From contig JAJDBF010000070.1 in the NCBI GenBank assembly GCA_029261535.1, positions 186,001 through 250,000 of the forward strand: a stretch of 64,000 bases of DNA, in the 5' to 3' direction. The stretch's first letter is position 1, and each line of letters begins with the position of its first letter. Below are positions 344 through 10,950 of the stretch, piece by piece. The notes under the pieces were generated by a model that saw nothing but the letters and a program-made list of their open reading frames with translations, was not told the origin of the DNA and ran no database searches. The position numbers and the translations under genes are program-made. The stretch comes from Nitrospinaceae bacterium. Its GTDB lineage: Bacteria > Nitrospinota > Nitrospinia > Nitrospinales > Nitrospinaceae.

Positions 344-1993
344 ATGGCAAACACGAAAGAGAATTCACAAGAAATTTCAAGTTGGAACGTACTCACCGAC
401 CCGTGGCTACAAGTAATGACCCTGGACGCGGAGGCAAAACACGTTTCTCCAGTCGAGGCTCTGGAAAAGGCCCGTTCCATTCATTCGATTGTTCTCTCCA
501 GTCCACTGGATTTCTTTGCCGTTCATCGTTTTCTCCTTACCTTGCTTTATTGGAAAGCAGACGCAGTTGGAGGAGTACAACAGGTTCGCGATTTGCTGAT
601 GAAAGAAGAGATTCCAACGGATGTCAGCAAAGCAATAAAAAGCGAAGCCTCCTGCTTTAATTTATTTGACGAAAACATTCCTTTTCTTCAAGACCCCTCT
701 ATCCAAAAGGAACCAAAGAAAGAACCAAAATCTCCAGGATATCTTTTTGCCGAGTTTGCCACTGGAACCAATATTGCCCACTTCCACCACGGGGATGACA
801 AACAGATGCGACTCTGTTTGATATGCACAACACTTGGAATGTTGCGAGTCGTTCCATGGAGCCAAGCCGGTGGTCGGGCATCAACGCCTTCCGTATGTGG
901 TGCTCCCTCAATTTTAATACTGGCTTCTGGAAAAACCCTGGCTCACACGCTCGGTTTGAATCTCATCCCCCTACAGGGTGAACTAGATACTGCGGCATGG
1001 ACTGGATACTTTAATCCAAAAAACACAGCGGAAAAAATCCCATATCTTGAAGCATTTACATGGAACCCAAGACGGATTTCCCTCCCATTCTCGGAAGAAA
1101 ATCAAACCTGTTGGGGTTGTGGTCGGGAAAAAATAACAGCGGTGGGGCCTATCTTTTACGCAATAAATGAGAAGACCAAGCTCAGAAAAAAAGAGAAAAA
1201 CAAAAAAGGCACCATTCCCTTTATCTGGCAGGACCCTTCCGCATTTTACCCTGCCAAACTACCTTATACTCCGAAAAAAAGTTCAGGAGAAACCTGGGCA
1301 ATAGATAACCGGGATTTAAATTTTTTACGAGATAAAAAACCTTCCATAGAAAACCGGGTACTCCAGGAAAATAACGGACATAAGGGTTGGCATTTAATTG
1401 TTCCCTGCACGAACAAGGCAAAAACCTATGACCACCGGAAAATAGAGATTTCCGATTTTTCTGACGTACCACAACCTGAGAAAGAAGAAGCACCCAAAAA
1501 AGGGTTGGACGGATGGAAAGAGCTCTCGAGTGCTCAAACTAAAGGTGCCATGACCTTTGTCAAAACAGCGGTTCAAATTTTCACCCCCGCCGACTGGTCT
1601 GCATTGGCGAGCGCAAAGTACCATAAAATGAGCGAGGCTCCGGCAGGGTTTGATGTGTTTACCGGCCTGTACTGGTCGCTCCGCAACAAGAAAAACACAT
1701 CCCATGTGCCTCAAAGAAATGTGTGCTGGCTGGTATTGAAACTCATGGCCACTGTTCCCGCAAGTGCACGCACTCAACATGCAGACGCGTCCTGCAACCC
1801 CTTTCAGTCCCTGCCAAAACGACAATTAAATGCTAAAGGCGGTAAACAGTCGCCCTACCCGCGAGCACTCCCGCAGGGCAACCGGTTAGAAGCCGGTCTT
1901 CGGCAGGTTCTTGATCGCCATCTGCAACCTAAATCGCCAGAGCATATTGACTGGGCGGGTCTCTGTTCCAGCATCCATCAACAACTCAACTAA
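344..1993 (+). CDS. cas8e: Cas8e (Cse1/CasA), large subunit of type I-E Cascade
   Basis: This is the large Cascade subunit, which recognises the PAM and starts R-loop formation. The 549-residue protein has the family's N-terminal motif NVLTDPWLQV (about 14-23), the following SPVEALEKA helix, the PFLQDPS segment, the GGRASTPSVCGAP segment and a CWGCG pair. I chose ATG 344 because AAGGAG stands five bases before it; a TTG nine codons upstream has no such site. The gene opens the visible cas operon, ahead of cas7. No cse2 gene follows, although it normally sits between cas8e and cas7. The last 147 residues look helical, and their end (HIDWAGL) resembles Cse2. They could be made separately from an internal start at 1550. 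In ordinary I-E systems Cas8e recruits Cas3, but no cas3 is visible here. Confidence 0.93.
   Translation: MANTKENSQEISSWNVLTDPWLQVMTLDAEAKHVSPVEALEKARSIHSIVLSSPLDFFAVHRFLLTLLYWKADAVGGVQQVRDLLMKEEIPTDVSKAIKSEASCFNLFDENIPFLQDPSIQKEPKKEPKSPGYLFAEFATGTNIAHFHHGDDKQMRLCLICTTLGMLRVVPWSQAGGRASTPSVCGAPSILILASGKTLAHTLGLNLIPLQGELDTAAWTGYFNPKNTAEKIPYLEAFTWNPRRISLPFSEENQTCWGCGREKITAVGPIFYAINEKTKLRKKEKNKKGTIPFIWQDPSAFYPAKLPYTPKKSSGETWAIDNRDLNFLRDKKPSIENRVLQENNGHKGWHLIVPCTNKAKTYDHRKIEISDFSDVPQPEKEEAPKKGLDGWKELSSAQTKGAMTFVKTAVQIFTPADWSALASAKYHKMSEAPAGFDVFTGLYWSLRNKKNTSHVPQRNVCWLVLKLMATVPASARTQHADASCNPFQSLPKRQLNAKGGKQSPYPRALPQGNRLEAGLRQVLDRHLQPKSPEHIDWAGLCSSIHQQLN
1550..1993 (+). other. Candidate internal translation start for a Cas11-like small subunit within cas8e
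   Basis: Inside cas8e an in-frame ATG at 1550-1552 follows AAAGG (1541-1545) by four bases. It would give a 147-residue helical protein, the usual size of Cas11/Cse2. Its C-terminal part (LEAGLRQVLD...HIDWAGL) recalls the end of Cse2 proteins. Internal translation of Cas11 from the cas8 message is established for subtypes I-B, I-C and I-D. It is not the rule in I-E, which normally has its own cse2 gene, and none is present here. This is an inference from the missing gene and the well-placed start; there is no direct proof. Confidence 0.35.
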
Positions 1994-2113: not shown

Positions 2114-3409
2114 ATGTTTATTCAAGCACACATGATAAAAAGCTCACCTCCCGGAAACCTCAATCGCGATGACACCGGGCAACCCAAGCAATGCGTGTTT
2201 GGTCAGGTGACCCGCGCACGCACCAGCAGTCAATGCCTTAAACGAAACATTCGCCATTCAACCCAGTTCAAGGAAGCCTTCTTTGGAGACGAGCTTGCCG
2301 ACAGAACAACCTATCTGCCCAAGATAGTGGCAGATGAATTAAAAAGTATGGGCGAGAAGTTTTCAGACGACGAATTGACCAAAATAAAAAAAGCCCTCAT
2401 CAAGAAGTTTAAAGGAGAAGAGAAAAAAGAAGCGAAGGAAGAAGGTGACGACAATGACAAGGAGGATGAAAAAAAGAAATCGTCAAAAAAAGTCGATGAC
2501 GACCATACACCTCAATTGGTTTTCTTTCCCCAAGCCTTTGCTCACGAAATTGCCAGTTTGATTTTGGAGTTGAGAAATAGAGAGGAAAAGGCTTACGCCT
2601 CATTTCTTGGCGACAAAATCAATTATTCAAAGGATAAAGATGAAAAAAAGGAAGAAAAAAAGAAACTCGAAAAAGAAGTGAAGAGTTTTGAAGATAGCAT
2701 CACTGCGGCGAGCAACAAGCTAACGGTAGATATCGGCCTCTTTGGTCGAATGACCACCAGTGATCTTGTCATCAACGTAGAAGCATCCTGTCAGGTGGCG
2801 CATGCGATCAGCACACACGAGACCCTGATCGAAAGTGATTACTTCACTGCCATGGATGATCGTAAGGAGAAGGACCCCGACCTCACTCAGACCGAAAAAA
2901 TGGGTGCGGCATTTCTGGGCTCTGGTGAAACCGAAACCTTTTTCAATTCCGCCGTCTATTATCACTACCTCAACTTCGACCTTTCTGCATTCAAGGAACA
3001 TTTGAAGGGTCTGGATCATAAAAATGTGGCAGACGTGGCCGGAGTGCTGATTGAAGCCATGGCGTTGGCCACCCCGACCGGAAAGCAAAACAGCTTTGCC
3101 GCGCACGGGATGCCTGATCTTATCCTGATCGAGCTGTCCGAAGTCAAACGGCCCATTTCTTACGCCAACGCTTTTCTCCAACCAGTGGAAGGTGGAGCGG
3201 GACGCAACCTGATGACCGAATCAGCCAAAGCCCTGAAAGGATATATCGAGTCCGTTGGAAAGGCGTTTGCACCTTCCGACTTATGCCAGATTCTTTTTGC
3301 TGTTGGTCCTGCAGAAATTGATTTAAAGGTTCAGCACAACGCCAATACCCTGGATGAGTTGATCAAGCAGGTTGTTGCCCAGATTATTTCCATGGAAAAA
3401 GGGGAGTAG
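2114..3409 (+). CDS. cas7: Cas7e (Cse4/CasC), backbone subunit of Cascade
   Basis: This is the crRNA-binding backbone subunit that forms the Cascade filament. The 431-residue protein starts at ATG 2114, six bases after GAAGGAG. It has the Cas7e hallmark LNRDDTGQPK (about 16-25) followed by TRARTSSQCLKRNIR, and a C-terminal GGAGRNLMTESAKAL segment. It is longer than the roughly 360 residues usual for the family. Two very Lys/Glu-rich insertions (about 100-131 and 168-190) account for the extra length; they sit in the variable thumb/helical part and should be exposed. The gene is third of the operon in function but directly follows cas8e, 120 bases downstream. Its stop is four bases before the cas5 start. 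Confidence 0.93.
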   Translation: MFIQAHMIKSSPPGNLNRDDTGQPKQCVFGQVTRARTSSQCLKRNIRHSTQFKEAFFGDELADRTTYLPKIVADELKSMGEKFSDDELTKIKKALIKKFKGEEKKEAKEEGDDNDKEDEKKKSSKKVDDDHTPQLVFFPQAFAHEIASLILELRNREEKAYASFLGDKINYSKDKDEKKEEKKKLEKEVKSFEDSITAASNKLTVDIGLFGRMTTSDLVINVEASCQVAHAISTHETLIESDYFTAMDDRKEKDPDLTQTEKMGAAFLGSGETETFFNSAVYYHYLNFDLSAFKEHLKGLDHKNVADVAGVLIEAMALATPTGKQNSFAAHGMPDLILIELSEVKRPISYANAFLQPVEGGAGRNLMTESAKALKGYIESVGKAFAPSDLCQILFAVGPAEIDLKVQHNANTLDELIKQVVAQIISMEKGE

Positions 3410-3413
3410 GCTG

Positions 3414-4547
3414 ATGACAGACAATACTGTTTTTCTAAACCTTTCCGGATGGATGCAATCGTGGGACACGGCCTCGCGTTTCCAGTTGCGCCGAACGGAC
3501 CTGTACCCTAGCAAATCTGGCGTTCTGGGATTGATACTTTGCAGTATGGGGGTTAAACGGGAAGATTCCCGAGAAACCCTCGCAGAGTTCACCTCTCTTC
3601 AAATGGGAGTGCGGGTGGATTGCGCTGGCAGACTGGGGTGGGATTACCATACCGCCGGAGCCAAAATTGGCATTCGTAGTGCTGACGGAAAGATAAAAAA
3701 AACACAGTCCACTGGTGAATTTGAAGTTCAACTTTCACGGCGGCAATATCTTTACGAAGCGTCTTTTCTTGTCGCTCTTAAAGGTACGGCGGATCAAGTC
3801 AACAATATCGCCCATGCTCTTCAAAATCCCGTCTGGCCTGTATTTCTTGGACGGAAGTGTTGCATTCCATCAACGCCGGTTTTTACCGGCACCGGGAATT
3901 TCAATACCCTGGAAGAGGCTCTGGCTTCCAAGCCATACCAACCCTGGAATAAATTTTCTCGCAAGAAAGAAATAGAGCTGGCTGTTTATCTTGAACACCT
4001 CGCGGGCACTCCTCCACCCTCTGATGCCCGCCTGGCGCATGATGTCCCTCAGGGGTTCGGGTTTCACAATCACGGCCCACGGTGGATTGTGAAAGGGAAG
4101 GTCACCGTTTCTGTAGACCCACCGTTATTGCAACCGCCAGCCACTCCTCGGGTGCGACTGGTGGACTATGGTTCCGAGCAATGGAAAGACGCACGCAAAT
4201 CCCGTTTGACACTCGATGGCTGGCTCTGTGTTTTCTGCAAGTCACCCGCCAAGGAAGTCCATCACGTCGACTATTCCAACGTGGGTCATGAATCCGATTC
4301 CGACTTAAGGTCTCTTTGCAAGTTTTGTCACAATGCCTGCACCATGATGGAGTATGGCAATGACATGAAAATGTTCAGGATAGATCCGGCGGACCCCGCT
4401 CAACGCGAGGCCATGCTAGGACAAATCGAAAAGCAAGTGATGGATTCCCGACCAGCCCGACACAGGAAATTGCTTAAGGCCGGGCGAAAGTCCGATTTCG
4501 ATTTTTTTGACAATTCATCAACACGGACATCTGGGGAGGTCGAATAA
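3414..4547 (+). CDS. cas5: Cas5e fused to a C-terminal HNH nuclease domain
   Basis: This is a Cascade subunit that caps the crRNA 5' handle, here carrying its own nuclease. Residues 1 to about 235 are Cas5e (LNLSGWMQSWD, TDLYPSKSGVLGLI, SRRQYLYEASF, FLGRKCCIPSTPVF). Residues about 265-320 form an HNH domain: C272-x2-C275, the histidine pair H283-H284 in EVHHVDY, then DLRSLCKFCH with C302-x2-C305 and H306. That is the standard zinc-ribbon HNH layout. The protein has 377 residues, where plain Cas5e has about 225-250. The start ATG 3414 follows AAGGGGAG by a few bases. The stop overlaps the cas6e start (TAATG). HNH-fused Cascades without Cas3 are, as I recall, reported as rare variants. Here the domain is intact, so the effector is inferred to cut target DNA itself. 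Confidence 0.93.
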   Translation: MTDNTVFLNLSGWMQSWDTASRFQLRRTDLYPSKSGVLGLILCSMGVKREDSRETLAEFTSLQMGVRVDCAGRLGWDYHTAGAKIGIRSADGKIKKTQSTGEFEVQLSRRQYLYEASFLVALKGTADQVNNIAHALQNPVWPVFLGRKCCIPSTPVFTGTGNFNTLEEALASKPYQPWNKFSRKKEIELAVYLEHLAGTPPPSDARLAHDVPQGFGFHNHGPRWIVKGKVTVSVDPPLLQPPATPRVRLVDYGSEQWKDARKSRLTLDGWLCVFCKSPAKEVHHVDYSNVGHESDSDLRSLCKFCHNACTMMEYGNDMKMFRIDPADPAQREAMLGQIEKQVMDSRPARHRKLLKAGRKSDFDFFDNSSTRTSGEVE

Positions 4548-5350
4548 TGTACTTAAGCAATCTTTTGATTGACACAGGGGAAAATGCCGACCGGCCGCGC
4601 CCGGGGCGTTCGTGGTTACGTAATCTTTATCATGTCCACCAGCGACTTTGCATGGCCTTTCCGTCCGCCTCCAGAAAAGAAAATGATCCGGATTTTCTCG
4701 CGCCCTATCAGCCTGAGGATTTTGACGGAAACCATGTTCATGTTAAACGCCAGCATGACACCGGGTTTCTGTTTCGTATTGATCCACTTCCCGGAGGTCG
4801 CGCCATCATACTGGTGCAGTCCGCCATGGAACCCGACTGGGATTATGCGTTTCACAACGCCGGTCATTTCCTGTCTGCATCAACGCAGGTGAAACTTTTT
4901 AATCCCGCTTTCAAAAAAGATCAATGCCTTCGGTTTCGCCTGTTGGCAAACCCGACCCGCCGCTTGAGCAAAAATTCGCGCGACGAAAAAGGAGAGTTGG
5001 TGAAGCCTGAATCTATCGGTAAACGCGTGCCCGTCCCGTTCGACAAGCTCTACCCATGGCTGGCGGAATGGCCCGAGCGGCAGAAGGGAACAGAGTCGGA
5101 CGGATTCACCCTGTTGTCGGATAAAGATTTAACCACCATGCAGACCGGCTATGTTTATTTTCACAAGCCAAGACATGACAAAGAAGGCAACAGAGTCAAA
5201 GACAAGGGTCGGCGGTTGTTTTCGGTTCGTTATGACGGAACACTCAAGGTCACTGACCCAGAAAAGTTCAAAAAAATAATTGCCGGTGGCATCGGCTCAG
5301 GTAAAGCCTTCGGCTTCGGTTTGCTTTCAGTCGCACCGATTCATGACTGA
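4547..5350 (+). CDS. cas6e: Cas6e (Cse3/CasE), crRNA-processing endoribonuclease
   Basis: Cas6e cuts the CRISPR transcript at the base of each repeat hairpin and stays bound to the crRNA 3' end. The 267-residue protein begins MYLSNLLID. It has the N-terminal Y-x-x-H motif (Y28 to H31 in NLYHVHQ), where the catalytic histidine normally lies, the FRLLANPTRR core strand and the glycine-rich C-terminal loop GIGSGKAFGFGLLSVAP. The start overlaps the cas5 stop by one base, so the two are translationally coupled. Its substrate is present downstream: a repeat with a perfect seven-base-pair stem. Confidence 0.93.
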   Translation: MYLSNLLIDTGENADRPRPGRSWLRNLYHVHQRLCMAFPSASRKENDPDFLAPYQPEDFDGNHVHVKRQHDTGFLFRIDPLPGGRAIILVQSAMEPDWDYAFHNAGHFLSASTQVKLFNPAFKKDQCLRFRLLANPTRRLSKNSRDEKGELVKPESIGKRVPVPFDKLYPWLAEWPERQKGTESDGFTLLSDKDLTTMQTGYVYFHKPRHDKEGNRVKDKGRRLFSVRYDGTLKVTDPEKFKKIIAGGIGSGKAFGFGLLSVAPIHD

Positions 5351-5414: not shown

Positions 5415-6344
5415 ATGGCAAAAAATCTGCAATTTTTACCCCGGTTCTCGGATCGCTGGAGCCACCTGTACCTTGAACACGGACGACTTGAAAAAGAGTC
5501 CGCATCGCTGGTCTTTTTTTCCGTCGAAGGTTCACTGGAAATTCCCGTGCATCAACTCAGTTTTCTTCTGCTCGGTCCAGGCACCTCCGTGACCCACTCC
5601 GCCATGAATGAGTTGGCCGCAAACAATACGCTGGTCGCCTGGGTGGGAGAACATGGCGTCCGGTTGTACGCCCACTCTACCGGCGGCACCCATCATTCCA
5701 CACGGCTCCTGCATCAGGCAAAACTTTTCAGCAATCGCGAAGAACGTTTGCAAGTCGTCCGTCGCATGTATGGCAAACGCTTTCCCGATGAACTGCCTGA
5801 CAACATCAGCCTGGAAGAAATACGAGGAAAAGAAGGCTGGCGTGTGCGCGAAGCCTACAGGAAGTCTGCCGAAATCCATGGCCTTGAATGGACCGGACGG
5901 AAATACGATCCCAACAACTGGGATCGTTCCGACCCGCTGAATCAGGCCCTGTCAACGGCCAACGCTTGTCTTTATGGATTGTGCCACGCCGCGATTCTTT
6001 CGGCGGGCTATTCCCCCGCAATCGGATTTGTTCATACCGGTAAAATGTTGTCCTTTGTGTATGACATCGCCGACCTTTATAAAACAGAAATCGCCGTACC
6101 CGTAGCCTTCGCGGCCGTTAAGGAAAGCAGGCATGAAGTCAGCCACAGAGTTCGTCTGGCCTGCCGCGATTTTTTTCACCGCGCACGTTTAATGAACCGT
6201 ATTCTTCCCGATATAGCGGAGGTGCTCGATGCTAGTGATGATCTTGGAGAAAGTCCCGGTGAGCTTGAGGGGAAACTTATCACGTTGGATGATCGAGCCA
6301 GGGACGGGAGTCTTCCTTGGCAACCCGAGCGCAAGGATACGTGA
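5415..6344 (+). CDS. cas1: Cas1e, spacer integrase
   Basis: This is the catalytic subunit of the Cas1-Cas2 complex that inserts new spacers. The 309-residue protein carries the expected metal ligands: E140 in RGKEGWRVR, H207 in GFVHTGK, and D217 and D220 in FVYDIADLYK. All are intact. The ATG at 5415 follows GGAGGCTAAAAGCC. The 64 bases between cas6e and cas1 hold nothing else I recognise. The end is unusual: the last 38 codons run beyond the cas2 start in another frame, so the C-terminus is longer than that of typical Cas1e. Adaptation genes kept next to a long array argue for a locus that recently gained spacers. Confidence 0.94.
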   Translation: MAKNLQFLPRFSDRWSHLYLEHGRLEKESASLVFFSVEGSLEIPVHQLSFLLLGPGTSVTHSAMNELAANNTLVAWVGEHGVRLYAHSTGGTHHSTRLLHQAKLFSNREERLQVVRRMYGKRFPDELPDNISLEEIRGKEGWRVREAYRKSAEIHGLEWTGRKYDPNNWDRSDPLNQALSTANACLYGLCHAAILSAGYSPAIGFVHTGKMLSFVYDIADLYKTEIAVPVAFAAVKESRHEVSHRVRLACRDFFHRARLMNRILPDIAEVLDASDDLGESPGELEGKLITLDDRARDGSLPWQPERKDT

Positions 6345-6555
6345 CAAGCTTTGGGAATTGGTCCTGGAAAAAGTAAAAGAAGGTTCTGCCCTTCAAATAT
6401 GGAGTGATTCCAGACGGGCGCAGGGCTACCGCTATCGCAGTTGCGGCACCCCCAAGCGAAGGATGATTGACTTCGATGGAATGGCCCTGATCCTGAGACC
6501 CGGAAGAATTCCAAAAAACAAAAAAGCGATTGCAAAAAATTCCAGCAAAGAGTAG
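6229..6555 (+). CDS. cas2: Cas2e, spacer acquisition subunit
   Basis: This is the structural partner of Cas1 in spacer integration. The 108-residue protein matches the I-E form of Cas2: MLVMILEKVPVSLRGNLSRW, then GVFLGNPSARIRDKLWE, then the IDFDGMAL strand. A lysine-rich tail (PKNKKAIAKNSSKE) follows. The ATG at 6229 lies inside cas1 and the overlap is 116 bases, much more than the few bases usual for this pair. A second ATG three codons later (6238) is possible and would still overlap. The array begins 54 bases after the stop, so the 3' end of cas2 probably contributes to the leader. Confidence 0.92.
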   Translation: MLVMILEKVPVSLRGNLSRWMIEPGTGVFLGNPSARIRDKLWELVLEKVKEGSALQIWSDSRRAQGYRYRSCGTPKRRMIDFDGMALILRPGRIPKNKKAIAKNSSKE

Positions 6556-6609
6556 TTGTACTACACCAGAGATTGTGGTGTGGGAAAGCCCCACCCTCAA
6601 CACTTTGGT
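6556..6609 (+). promoter_or_regulatory. Short CRISPR leader with inverted repeat
   Basis: Only 54 bases separate the cas2 stop from repeat 1, whereas I-E leaders are often longer. The stretch holds a perfect inverted repeat, ACACCA (6563-6568) and TGGTGT (6576-6581), followed by GGGAAAGCCCCACCC. The A-rich 3' end of cas2 (about 6516-6553) probably supplies the usual AT-rich part of the leader. The repeat orientation (ending GTGAACCG) and the decayed repeat at the far end both place the leader here. No clear promoter is seen. Confidence 0.5.
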
Positions 6610-8509
6610 GTCTTCCCCACGCACGTGGGGGTGAACCGCTTCAGTCGTTGCCGCTCGCAGGATTTGCTATGTCTTCCCCACGCACGTGGGGGTGAACCGA
6701 CGCTGAGGGCGTGGGGCATAACAACCTCCCCGTCTTCCCCACGCACGTGGGGGTGAACCGATGGCGCAACGGTTGCGGATGCAGATGTTGGAGTCTTCCC
6801 CACGCACGTGGGGGTGAACCGCCACCGATTTCATCCTTGCAGATGCCAACGCCTTATTCCCCACGCACGTGGGGTTGAACCGCGTCTCCGGTGATGTCTC
6901 CGGATTTTCCTGTGGTCTTCCCCACGCACGTGGGGGTGAACCGTAAGAACACTCCAGCGCACGATCAGGTCCCTCGTCTTCCCCACGCACGTGGGGGTGA
7001 ACCGGAACGCCAGCCGCTGGTCCCTTTTTTTTCCAGTGTCTTCCCACCGCACGTGGGGGTGAACCATTTGCGCGGCACAAAGAAACTTTCACAGACAGTC
7101 TTCCCCACGCACGTGGGGGTGAACCGATTACAGTTCCTAAAATTAACCGCAAATTAACGTCTTCCCCACGCACGTGGGGGTGAACCGGTTTTGTTTTCAC
7201 GAGTGGATTGGGGGTACGCGTCTTCCCCACGCACGTGGGGGTGAACCGTTCCCCAACAGCTCCTCCTGTGCCGCTAATAAGTCTTCCCCACGCACGTGGG
7301 GGTGAACCGTCTTTCCTTGGTGCTTCCCAGTGCCTTGTTTGGTCTTCCCCACGCACGTGGGGGTGAACCGTTACGCCGAAAATTCGCAACTCGTTTTGAA
7401 GAGTCTTCCCCACGCACGTGGGGGTGAACCGTCTCTCCTCCTATTACAATCTCCCCGATTCCCGTCTTCCCCACGCACGTGGGGGTGAACCGGGCCGTTC
7501 GGAGTTAGGAGCACAGCATCCAGCGTCTTCCCCACGCACGTGGGGGTGAACCGACGTGAAAGAAGTGTTGGAATTACTGATGGAAGTCTTCCCCACGCAC
7601 GTGGGGGTGAACCGCAACTCCACATGTGAAAACTTTCCGGCACTTCGTCTTCCCCACGCACGTGGGGGTGAACCGACATCGACTATGACTTAAGGTCGGA
7701 CGCTGATGTCTTCCCCACGCACGTGGGGGTGAACCGATCACAGTTATCTCGACTGGCGGTGCCCCGGCGTCTTCCCCACGCACGTGGGGGTGAACCGTAC
7801 CCACGCGAATCATCCAGGGGGGTGGGCTGGTCTTCCCCACGCACGTGGGGGTGAACCGCCCAATCGCGTTCGCGGAATGATCTCGAATCAGTCTTCCCCA
7901 CGCACGTGGGGGTGAACCGTGTGCTAGGCCAGATTTCCTCTGGCACCATTGGTCTTCCCCACGCACGTGGGGGTGAACCGTTTATCCTGCTATTTACGAT
8001 CAGACGCTTGAAGTCTTCCCCACGCACGTGGGGGTGAACCGGCAAAAGGGCGTTGATTATATTTGATGAGGCGTCTTCCCCACGCACGTGGGGGTGAACC
8101 GCATTTGATCCCGTTCTTTGGTGGCTACAAGATGTCTTCCCCACGCACGTGGGGGTGAACCGTTCAAGACTACCGCTGAACGGTTTGGTCTATTGTCTTC
8201 CCCACGCACGTGGGGGTGAACCGAGAAAAAAGAGGAAATCAAAGACGTTAAGCCCGTCTTCCCCACGCACGTGGGGGTGAACCGGCTAGAATCCACTGTT
8301 TCTTGAAGAAAAAAGCGTCTTCCCCACGCACGTGGGGGTGAACCGTTATAGCCATTATTAAACCCAATTCTTTCATAGTCTTCCCCACGCACGTGGGGGT
8401 GAACCGTCGCTATTCAACGACGCAATTGAAGGCGCGAAGTCTTCCCCACGCACGTGGGGGTGAACCTAGTCGAGGTGGTGGCCCCTGTAGGCGCGGCTAG
8501 TCTTCCCCA
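6610..8509 (+). CRISPR. Type I-E CRISPR array, 31 repeats plus a truncated 32nd
   Basis: The 29-base repeat starts GTCTTCCCCACG, contains the perfect stem CCCCACG-CA-CGTGGGG and ends GTGAACCG. Copies begin at 6610, 6671, 6732 and so on every 61 bases up to 8439. Spacers are 32 bases, except 33 before the copy at 7038 and 31 before those at 7098 and 8073. Repeats 5 (6854, starting TTATTCC and GGGGTTG) and 8 (7038, CCCACCGC and final A) are mutated inside the array, and repeat 31 (8439) ends in T. At 8500 a last repeat begins but stops after GTCTTCCCCA at 8509, where unrelated sequence takes over. No spacer is obviously duplicated. Transcription is expected from the cas2 side, with Cas6e cutting at the stem. 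Confidence 0.98.
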
Positions 8510-8696
8510 TTCTCAAGGAGACCTTTGCATAACCCAATAATCAAAAGCAAAGGCGAGATTCTTCGTCGCCTGCGGCTTCTCAGAATGACATTGCGGTGGT
8601 TTAAAGTATCACCCTGAGCTTGTCGAAGGAAAGGGGGACTTCCACTTTTCAATCTTTCAAAAAACACTTATGCAAAGCTCTCATTCTCAAGGGGAC
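8508..8696. repeat. MITE-like element that truncates the array end
   Basis: Perfect 10-base inverted repeats CTTTGCATAA (8523-8532) and TTATGCAAAG (8668-8677) enclose about 135 bases. Two direct copies of CATTCTCAAGG[A/G]GAC (8508-8522 and 8682-8696, one mismatch) lie outside them. The inside holds copies of the dispersed motifs GGCGAGATTCTTC...TCAGAATGACA (8552-8592) and CCCTGAGCTTGTCGAAGG (about 8611-8629), seen again elsewhere in the window. No coding potential is visible. The layout suggests a small non-autonomous insertion, but the 15-base direct repeat is long for a target duplication. Confidence 0.5.
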
Positions 8697-8754: not shown

Positions 8755-9861
8755 TTACTTTTTTAGTTTCAAATTATATCGCGTGCTTTTAAATTCACCT
8801 GTTTTGGTAAATGCGCCTTTTTGCACTAAAGCCTGTAAATCTCTGGTGGCTGTGGCACGGGAAGTTCCGGTGATGGTGATATAGTTTTCTGCGCTTAATC
8901 CTCCTTTGAAACCTTTGGGTCCTTCCCGGAACATTCTGAGTGTAACTTTTTCCTGCCGCTCATTAAGTTGGCCTCTGAACGTGTCAAAGAACCTGACTTT
9001 TTTAATCAGGAAATCAATCTGCACTTGCGTTTCTTCCTGCGCTTCCAGAATAGTCTTGGAAAAATACAGAAGCCATGCCGTAATCTCGTTGCCTTTATTG
9101 CTCTGCTCCAGCTTTGAGTAATAGGCTTTTTTATTGTCCTGGATGGTTTGAGACAAGGCTATGAGAGCGGGTTGTCCTAACCTTTCGGAAAGAGACTTCT
9201 CCGCAAGAGCGCGACCCATGCGCCCGTTTCCGTCTTCAAAGGGATGGATGCTGACAAACCATAGATGTGTAATCCCGGCACGCGCCAAAGCCTGAAGCGG
9301 TTCTTTACCCTTGGGTACCGTTTTTCTGAACCAGTCGATGAAGGCTTTCATTTCTGTTTTCATCGAGGTCGAAGGCGGTGCTTCGTAATGCACCTTTGGT
9401 TTATGGACATAGCCGGAGACAATCTGCATAGGTTCGGTATGGGTCCGGTAGCGTCCTATGTCCTGCAAATCTCGTCGTCCGCTGGTCAACATTTTGTGCC
9501 AGTTAAAAAGAGTCTGGTTCGAAAGTGACTTGGCATAATTCCGGTAGAGATCAATCATCATTTCGGCAATGCCCCGCTCGGCAGGAGGAATTTTGCGGTT
9601 ATCTGTTTCCAAGCCTAAATTCCGGCGGATAGAAGACTGGATACTGTCGCGATTCAGAAACTCACCTTCAATTTCAGAAGTCTTCAAGGCTTCCGTGCAG
9701 ATAAGGTCTACGGTGAGAATATTTTTCTCTTCGTCACTGATATGCTTATAGGCACCAAGTAAATGGCCCGAGCGGTGGAGAAACTGCTCTTCCAAGGCTT
9801 TGAGAGCTTTGGTGTCAAATCGAAAATTCGGCCAGTCTTTTTGTTGCCAGTTCCATTTCAT
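8755..9861 (-). CDS. Fic-domain protein (probable AMP-transferase)
   Basis: Fic enzymes usually transfer AMP from ATP to a hydroxyl group of a target protein. The 368-residue protein has the complete active-site motif HPFEDGNGRMGR (H206). An N-terminal DUF4172-like part (WNWQQKDWPNFRFD) carries the inhibitory motif T-x3-E-G (T61 to G66), so it should be an autoinhibited class II Fic protein. A C-terminal winged-helix-like segment (LSAENYITITGTSRATATRDLQAL) resembles a DNA-binding fold. I chose ATG at 9861, preceded by AAGGAT. The gene stands alone on the minus strand next to the CRISPR locus. A role in defence is possible but not shown. Confidence 0.9.
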   Translation of the reverse strand: MKWNWQQKDWPNFRFDTKALKALEEQFLHRSGHLLGAYKHISDEEKNILTVDLICTEALKTSEIEGEFLNRDSIQSSIRRNLGLETDNRKIPPAERGIAEMMIDLYRNYAKSLSNQTLFNWHKMLTSGRRDLQDIGRYRTHTEPMQIVSGYVHKPKVHYEAPPSTSMKTEMKAFIDWFRKTVPKGKEPLQALARAGITHLWFVSIHPFEDGNGRMGRALAEKSLSERLGQPALIALSQTIQDNKKAYYSKLEQSNKGNEITAWLLYFSKTILEAQEETQVQIDFLIKKVRFFDTFRGQLNERQEKVTLRMFREGPKGFKGGLSAENYITITGTSRATATRDLQALVQKGAFTKTGEFKSTRYNLKLKK

Positions 9862-10153
9862 GAGCAATATCCTTTTAAAATACTACTCAAATAATAGCTA
9901 TTTATGAGCTATAAGTCCAACGTTTATTGCTCACTCTTTGAAACGTCCATGCGCTGGCACACAAAGATGGATCAAAAGGCCCAATCGGAGTTGAACCAGA
10001 AAAAAAAACCTTAACTTATTATAAAACATGGGACTTATTGAGCAGGCGAGGGTTGAGCTTGAAGGCTGGGGGGAAAATCCAGGTCGCAAATGAAAGACTC
10101 CGAACCGGCAAAATTCTTTTCTATTTCAAGGCGTTAGGAGGGTGAAATAAAAC

Positions 10154-10231
10154 TGGCGTCCCCAGCGGGATTCGAACCCGCGTCGCCGGCGTGAAAGGCC
10201 GGTGTCCTGGGCCAGGCTAGACGATGGGGAC
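10154..10231 (-). tRNA. tRNA-Glu (UUC)
   Basis: Read on the minus strand, the gene starts GTCCCCATCGTCTAG and ends TGGGGAC-G-CCA, with the CCA encoded. The anticodon stem CCGGC/GCCGG holds the loop CTTTCAC with anticodon TTC. The T arm has GGTTCGAATCC. The acceptor stem pairs over seven bases. Confidence 0.97.
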
Positions 10232-10350
10232 GCCCTGATTCTTTGGGTGAGTCTCTCTCCTTTTTATTTCAGATGTCATACTTGCCAAGGATACGCTCAT
10301 CATAAAAAAATGAACGCACGGCACCCGACACCTGCGAGGAGGAACCCACG

Positions 10351-10380
10351 AAAAATCCGGCCGGGAGCCGGATTTTCTTT
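10351..10380 (-). terminator. Rho-independent terminator downstream of tRNA-Lys
   Basis: A perfect stem AATCCGGC (10354-10361) and GCCGGATT (10367-10374) with a five-base loop is flanked by a T run on both strands, five Ts on the minus strand. It lies between the two minus-strand tRNA genes, downstream of tRNA-Lys and upstream of tRNA-Glu. It can act in either direction. Confidence 0.75.
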
Positions 10381-10495
10381 CTACTTGAATTAAATGTACC
10401 GTCCGGAAGAAGTAAAAACTTGTTCCCTTGAATGGATACCCGGTAAAACGGTGCAGGCCAAACCTTGCCTGACCCGTTAGCTCTCTTGCGAGTAG

Positions 10496-10568
10496 TGAGC
10501 CGCGAAGGGCTCGAACCTTCGACCCACGCCTTAAAAGGGCGTTGCTCTACCAACTGAGCTAGCGGCCC
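10496..10568 (-). tRNA. tRNA-Lys (UUU)
   Basis: On the minus strand the gene reads GGGCCGCTAGCTCAGTTGG and so on, with anticodon stem ACGCC/GGCGT and loop CTTTTAA, anticodon TTT. The acceptor stem GGGCCGC pairs with GCGGCTC (one G-T pair). The T arm is GGTTCGAGCC. The CCA end is not encoded, unlike the neighbouring tRNA-Glu. Confidence 0.97.
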
Positions 10569-10585
10569 GCAAATAGAGAACGTAT

Positions 10586-10614
10586 TGAATATCAAACCCA
10601 TTGTAGCATGTCAA
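10586..10614 (-). promoter_or_regulatory. Probable promoter of tRNA-Lys
   Basis: On the minus strand TTGACA (10609-10614) is followed after 17 bases by TATTCA (10586-10591). Transcription would start about ten bases before the tRNA 5' end at 10568. The -35 box is perfect; the -10 box matches consensus at only half its positions. Confidence 0.45.
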
Positions 10615-10950
10615 TGGATATTATGCGGACCCGCGTCAATTCAGTCTTTTTGCCGAAGATGACCGGCAAATCAAGGTCTTCAGGGAGTCACTTCCGCCCT
10701 GCTTCTGTTAAAAAAACTGCTCATTATCACTTGATTTTCCCCCAATGCCCTCACTACAATGATCGGAATCTGGCGTAACCTGAAAAGTGAAAAATGGTCC
10801 CCGTTTGACCTCCTCTGATTAAGGTTCCCACGACATAAAATATGAGGCCCCATCCGCCTCACCTTTTCCAGATTCTAAATGGATGGCGTACGAAGTCAGG
10901 TCATCAAGCTGGACTCCCAAAATAACCCCCAACGCAGGACACTTGGCAGT

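Follow-up and report, generated by a model that had tools for sequence, protein, structure and literature searches.

CRISPR-Cas systems in which Cas5 carries an HNH domain were published as a class in 2023 (Altae-Tran 2023, PMC10910872). The system from Candidatus Cloacimonetes cleaves double-stranded DNA and requires its HNH catalytic residues for editing activity, and fusions of cas8 to cas11 were already noted in some cases in the same work (PMC10910872). HNH-Cascade structures followed in two 2024 papers, as summarized in a 2025 commentary, and the 2025 classification designates the Cas5-HNH variant type I-E2. A search of the literature for I-E2 together with Cas11 found nothing beyond these papers. 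An earlier note on the DNA described here, made from its letters alone, had described such complexes as known but rare, in agreement with a class that has been in print since 2023, with structures from 2024 and a name from 2025. Cas3-less HNH-Cascades make a precise cut rather than shredding DNA, and are under development for genome editing.

The cas locus and its Cas5-HNH protein

The window, a 64,000-nucleotide stretch of a Nitrospinaceae genome, is part of the 257-kb contig C70 and encodes a set of cas genes on the forward strand, all of them with open frames. The I-E effector genes cas8e (as a fusion, 344..1993), cas7e, and cas6e are all present beside cas5-HNH. Cas7e (CasC/Cse4; 2114..3409; 431 residues) matches PF09344 at 4.2e-89 and has 8yb6_D as its best solved relative. 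It carries a highly charged insertion, rich in Lys, Glu, and Asp, and charged stretches are similarly placed in loci L019 and L034. Downstream of cas5-HNH lie cas6e (4547..5350; 267 residues; PF08798, 5.3e-40), cas1 (5415..6344; 309 residues; PF01867, 1.6e-20), and a cas2 of the CT1978 type (6229..6555; 108 residues; PF09707, 1.1e-29). The overlap between cas1 and cas2, out of frame, spans 116 nt in the window; among relatives it ranges from 20 nt (L019) up to about 200 nt (L053, L054).

The CRISPR array (6610..8467) has 31 repeats, each 29 nt long, and 30 spacers, which measure 31-33 nt and in nearly all cases 32 nt. The last repeat, at 8439, is degenerate, which places the leader on the cas2 side; together with repeat orientation, this suggests that the leader is short and occupies the interval from cas2 to the first repeat (6556..6609). 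An array of 31 repeats shows past adaptation. No protospacer match was found for the whole array among 50,697 phage records, nor for four spacer cores among viral contigs. The operon had been described in the earlier note as full, and cas1, cas2, and the 31-repeat array are indeed present, but there is no separate cas11 at the locus, that component being fused into cas8.

The cas5e-HNH gene (3414..4547; 377 residues) starts with ATG, with AGGGGAG upstream. Residues 7-213 of its product match the Pfam Cas5 model (E 1.8e-35) and residues 6-176 match TIGR01868, casD_Cas5e, of NCBIfam (5.6e-41). An intact HNH domain had been proposed to follow, and the residues listed for it, C272, C275, H283, H284, C302, C305, and H306, are all found in the C-terminal part, where alignment to 8yb6_A and conservation among nine proteins place the domain at residues about 252-322 (4167..4379). 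An HMM search of this region, proposed in the same note, did return the HNH model PF01844, but weakly: the C-terminal part alone scores 17.5 bits (E 0.0046), below the curated cut-off of 21.4 bits. Comparison of the whole protein leaves no ambiguity: its best solved relative is the Cas5 subunit of PDB entry 8yb6, from the I-E HNH-Cascade of Candidatus Cloacimonetes, aligned over almost its entire length (E 2.2e-72; residues 3-353, HNH region included). In the alignment, the related entry 9jxs has Ala at the position of H306. AlphaFold predictions from two-sequence alignments reached a mean pLDDT of just 31 for Cas8-Cas11 and 39 for Cas5-HNH, too poor for use.

Eight further Cas5-HNH loci were found, seven of them in Planctomycetota genomes. 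The closest, L019, from the Planctomycetota MAG Dive96_bin2.90, encodes a Cas5-HNH 59-60% identical to that of the window; genome G022, from the same order as the window genome, has one at 41%. A sample of 393 Planctomycetota genomes yielded six Cas5-HNH loci beyond that of L019 itself, and 77 genomes were available for searching in the host phylum. In a phylogenetic tree, the window protein pairs with that of L019 (support 90/96); a group of six stands separately (91/99). Both H284 and H306 occur unchanged in all nine Cas5-HNH proteins, and the H284A change suggested in the earlier note is aimed at the right residue. H283 varies, six of the eight relatives having Q instead, and the zinc cysteines are intact in every protein except that of L055. 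By these alignments, the predicted catalytic and zinc-binding residues of the window HNH are intact and conserved. The Cas5-HNH of L055 (L055:3774-4967, genome G266) is divergent: both catalytic histidines remain, but only one of the four zinc cysteines is left, and its gene adjoins one for a 655-residue Cas8-Cas11 fusion. Used alone, the HNH part (query residues 240-316) also matches G250:C133:47529, G314:C690:1267, and G421:C108:23, which may be stand-alone relatives of the HNH donor.

No Cas5-HNH was found in the same-genus or same-family genomes searched. A same-genus genome assembled as a single contig conserves a branched-chain aminotransferase-like gene (named from sequence) and two tRNA genes (10154-10568) that lie downstream of the array in the window, and the cas locus was not seen in the stretch of that genome compared. 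Conserved flanks without the cas locus, and the lack of Cas5-HNH in the genus and family genomes searched, fit a horizontal gain of the cas locus beside the tRNA genes. Between array and tRNA genes, in a stretch that does not align to the same-genus genome, lies a Fic-like protein gene (8755-9867, reverse strand; also named from sequence). Near the locus there is also more than one copy of a dispersed repeat (about 125-140 nt; window 8501-8622; L004 about 10500-10920) that is shared with same-genus genome G002.

The Cas8-Cas11 fusion

The first gene of the operon (344..1993) encodes 549 residues from the ATG at 344, with a TTG at 317 as a further in-frame start. Residues 15-274 match Pfam Cse1 (3.8e-34), and the closest solved relative of this N-terminal part is again in the 8yb6 set. 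The C-terminal part (1541..1990) resembles Cas11 (Cse2): phmmer against all PDB sequences matched it at E 2.2e-6 to 8yb6_K, the Cas11 chain in the solved HNH-Cascade, and a profile built from six free Cas11 proteins of relatives scored 45.2 bits on the fusion, against 8.5 bits for the best of 2000 shuffles. By hhalign, the C-terminal part gave a probability of 97.3 against the six Cas11 proteins and of 0.4 against the Cas8 C-terminal bundles of relatives. The gap between the conserved Cas8 N-terminal part and the Cas11 part is only about 28 residues, too small for a C-terminal bundle, which takes up roughly 130 residues in relatives. By sequence comparison, a Cas11-like domain stands where Cas8e would otherwise have its C-terminal bundle. 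L019 has the same layout, with a fusion of 559 residues; in the longer fusion of L055, a stretch separating its two parts is retained.

In each HNH-Cascade entry of the PDB, Cas11 is represented by a single chain and Cas7 by six, a stoichiometry with which a one-to-one fusion of Cas8 and Cas11 would be compatible. We infer that the fused domain may fill two roles, that of the C-terminal bundle of Cas8 and that of the lone free Cas11. The balance tilts slightly toward an I-E HNH-Cascade reduced to a minimum of four proteins: one Cas11 domain would take the place of the Cas8e C-terminal bundle, and the inner belly would comprise one Cas11-like bundle plus HNH, held at one to one by fusion; this layout is common to two phyla, and we found no structure of it.

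Alternatively, cas8 might also yield free Cas11 from an internal start, a mechanism reported for certain other type I systems, and the complex would then keep a separate Cas11. The beginning of the Cas11 part does have an ATG in frame, at 1550, preceded by AAAGG, but this start lacks conservation, since the L019 fusion offers no start codon equipped with a ribosome site at that place, and one Cas11 per complex suffices in the solved HNH-Cascades. We hold such an internal start to be unlikely.

Predicted target cleavage and the search for cas3

Profile searches for Cas3 found no cas3 within the window, which bears out the claim that none occurs between or after the cas genes, and none in the 14 kb that precede base 1, where, according to the earlier note, a cas3 would have refuted its reading. 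The cas3 helicase-nuclease characteristic of a canonical type I-E locus is thus absent here. Used by itself, TIGR01587 was considered to lack sensitivity for I-E Cas3, because E. coli fell off its control list at E 1e-10; PF18019 was therefore searched as well, alongside a positive control genome of plain I-E type (G094), where Cas3_HD scored 6.9e-44 in the region of the cas genes. Genome-wide, the only match above the cas3_core cut-off (6.4e-37) lies on the 10-kb contig C36; two weaker Cas3_HD matches fall in frames of about 280-290 residues. Looking elsewhere in the genome, as had been advised, did therefore uncover a cas3, but one inside a separate type I-C locus, complete at 838 residues and accompanied by its own array, cas5c, cas8c, cas7c, cas4, and cas1. 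Because C36 is only 10 kb long and its Cas8c was not found in the eight relatives searched, its place in the genome is uncertain, and the I-C locus may represent a recent gain or a binning error. Besides this locus (L020), the assembly has two type II loci with cas9 (L021 on C75 and L022 on C41), on contigs of 5-10 kb. Among relatives, the Cas5-HNH genes lie in I-E style operons with no adjacent cas3 recognized, some contigs ending nearby. Across the eight other Cas5-HNH genomes, no match to the cas3 helicase core exceeded the cut-off, and their single Cas3_HD match is marginal (23.4 bits against 23.1; E 8e-5).

The window locus is very probably a type I-E2 (Cas5-HNH) CRISPR-Cas system, with HNH cutting in place of Cas3: Cas5-HNH, Cas7, and the N-terminal part of Cas8 are all closest to the 8yb6 set, the HNH histidines are conserved, and the locus has no cas3. 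The proposal of a Cas3-less type I-E effector is likewise upheld by gene content and by near full-length homology to a system with published target cleavage. In such a system, new spacers would be added by Cas1-Cas2, and the RNA of the array would be processed by Cas6e. The Cas8e-Cas11 fusion would join Cas7, Cas5-HNH, and Cas6 in a Cascade that finds PAM-flanked double-stranded DNA, and, once an R-loop had formed, the HNH on Cas5 would cut both strands just past the PAM-distal end, replacing Cas3. Complex assembly, cleavage positions, and dependence on HNH would, by analogy, follow those of the Candidatus Cloacimonetes homolog.

Two other accounts of the locus deserve weight. The I-E complex might only bind, with HNH as an accessory and DNA destroyed by the type I-C Cas3. 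The complete Cas3 on C36 gives this idea its substance, but it belongs to a separate locus whose place in the genome is uncertain, recruitment of Cas3 depends on its own Cascade, and the eight other Cas5-HNH genomes show no helicase core above cut-off; we give this account hardly any credence. It is also improbable, to a high degree, that HNH is inactive or the locus decaying, so that the system merely binds or silences its targets. The missing protospacers, the sub-threshold Pfam score of HNH, and the want of a separate cas11 gene could be read that way, but every cas frame is open, the HNH residues are conserved, the array is long and regular, and the same layout is kept in a relative at 59-60% identity.

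Comparison with described systems

Placement of an HNH within Cascade instead of Cas3 is shared, according to the literature, with the type I-F4 Cas8-HNH system of Selenomonas, but there the HNH resides in Cas8f and the genes are type I-F. Canonical type I-E systems (E. coli; G094/L056) have homologs of Cas8e, Cas7e, Cas5e, Cas6e, Cas1, and Cas2, but possess cas3 and a Cas5 without HNH. L019 matches the window in gene order, Cas8-Cas11 fusion, cas1, cas2, and array, and differs in phylum and in the less regular spacing of its array.

The window locus is a further member of the published I-E2 class, and its fused layout is the part worth following. With it, the class gains a representative from a phylum other than that of the published example, joined by Planctomycetota relatives that are free of cas3. 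A separate cas11 is not a defining feature of I-E2. Because Cas8-Cas11 fusions were noted in 2023, its lack here is compatible with that type and the novelty of the layout is modest. A natural four-gene version with fused Cas8-Cas11, if real, would nevertheless offer a smaller tool and a test of which belly subunits place HNH. With the Candidatus Cloacimonetes I-E2 system (8yb6, 8yha, and others), the locus shares a Cas5e with a C-terminal HNH, aligned over residues 3-353, the absence of cas3, a cas8/cas7/cas6 effector, and 32-nt spacers; that system, in contrast, has a five-gene effector with separate cas11 and a separate 535-residue Cas8 chain, where the window has a four-gene effector with one 549-residue Cas8-Cas11.
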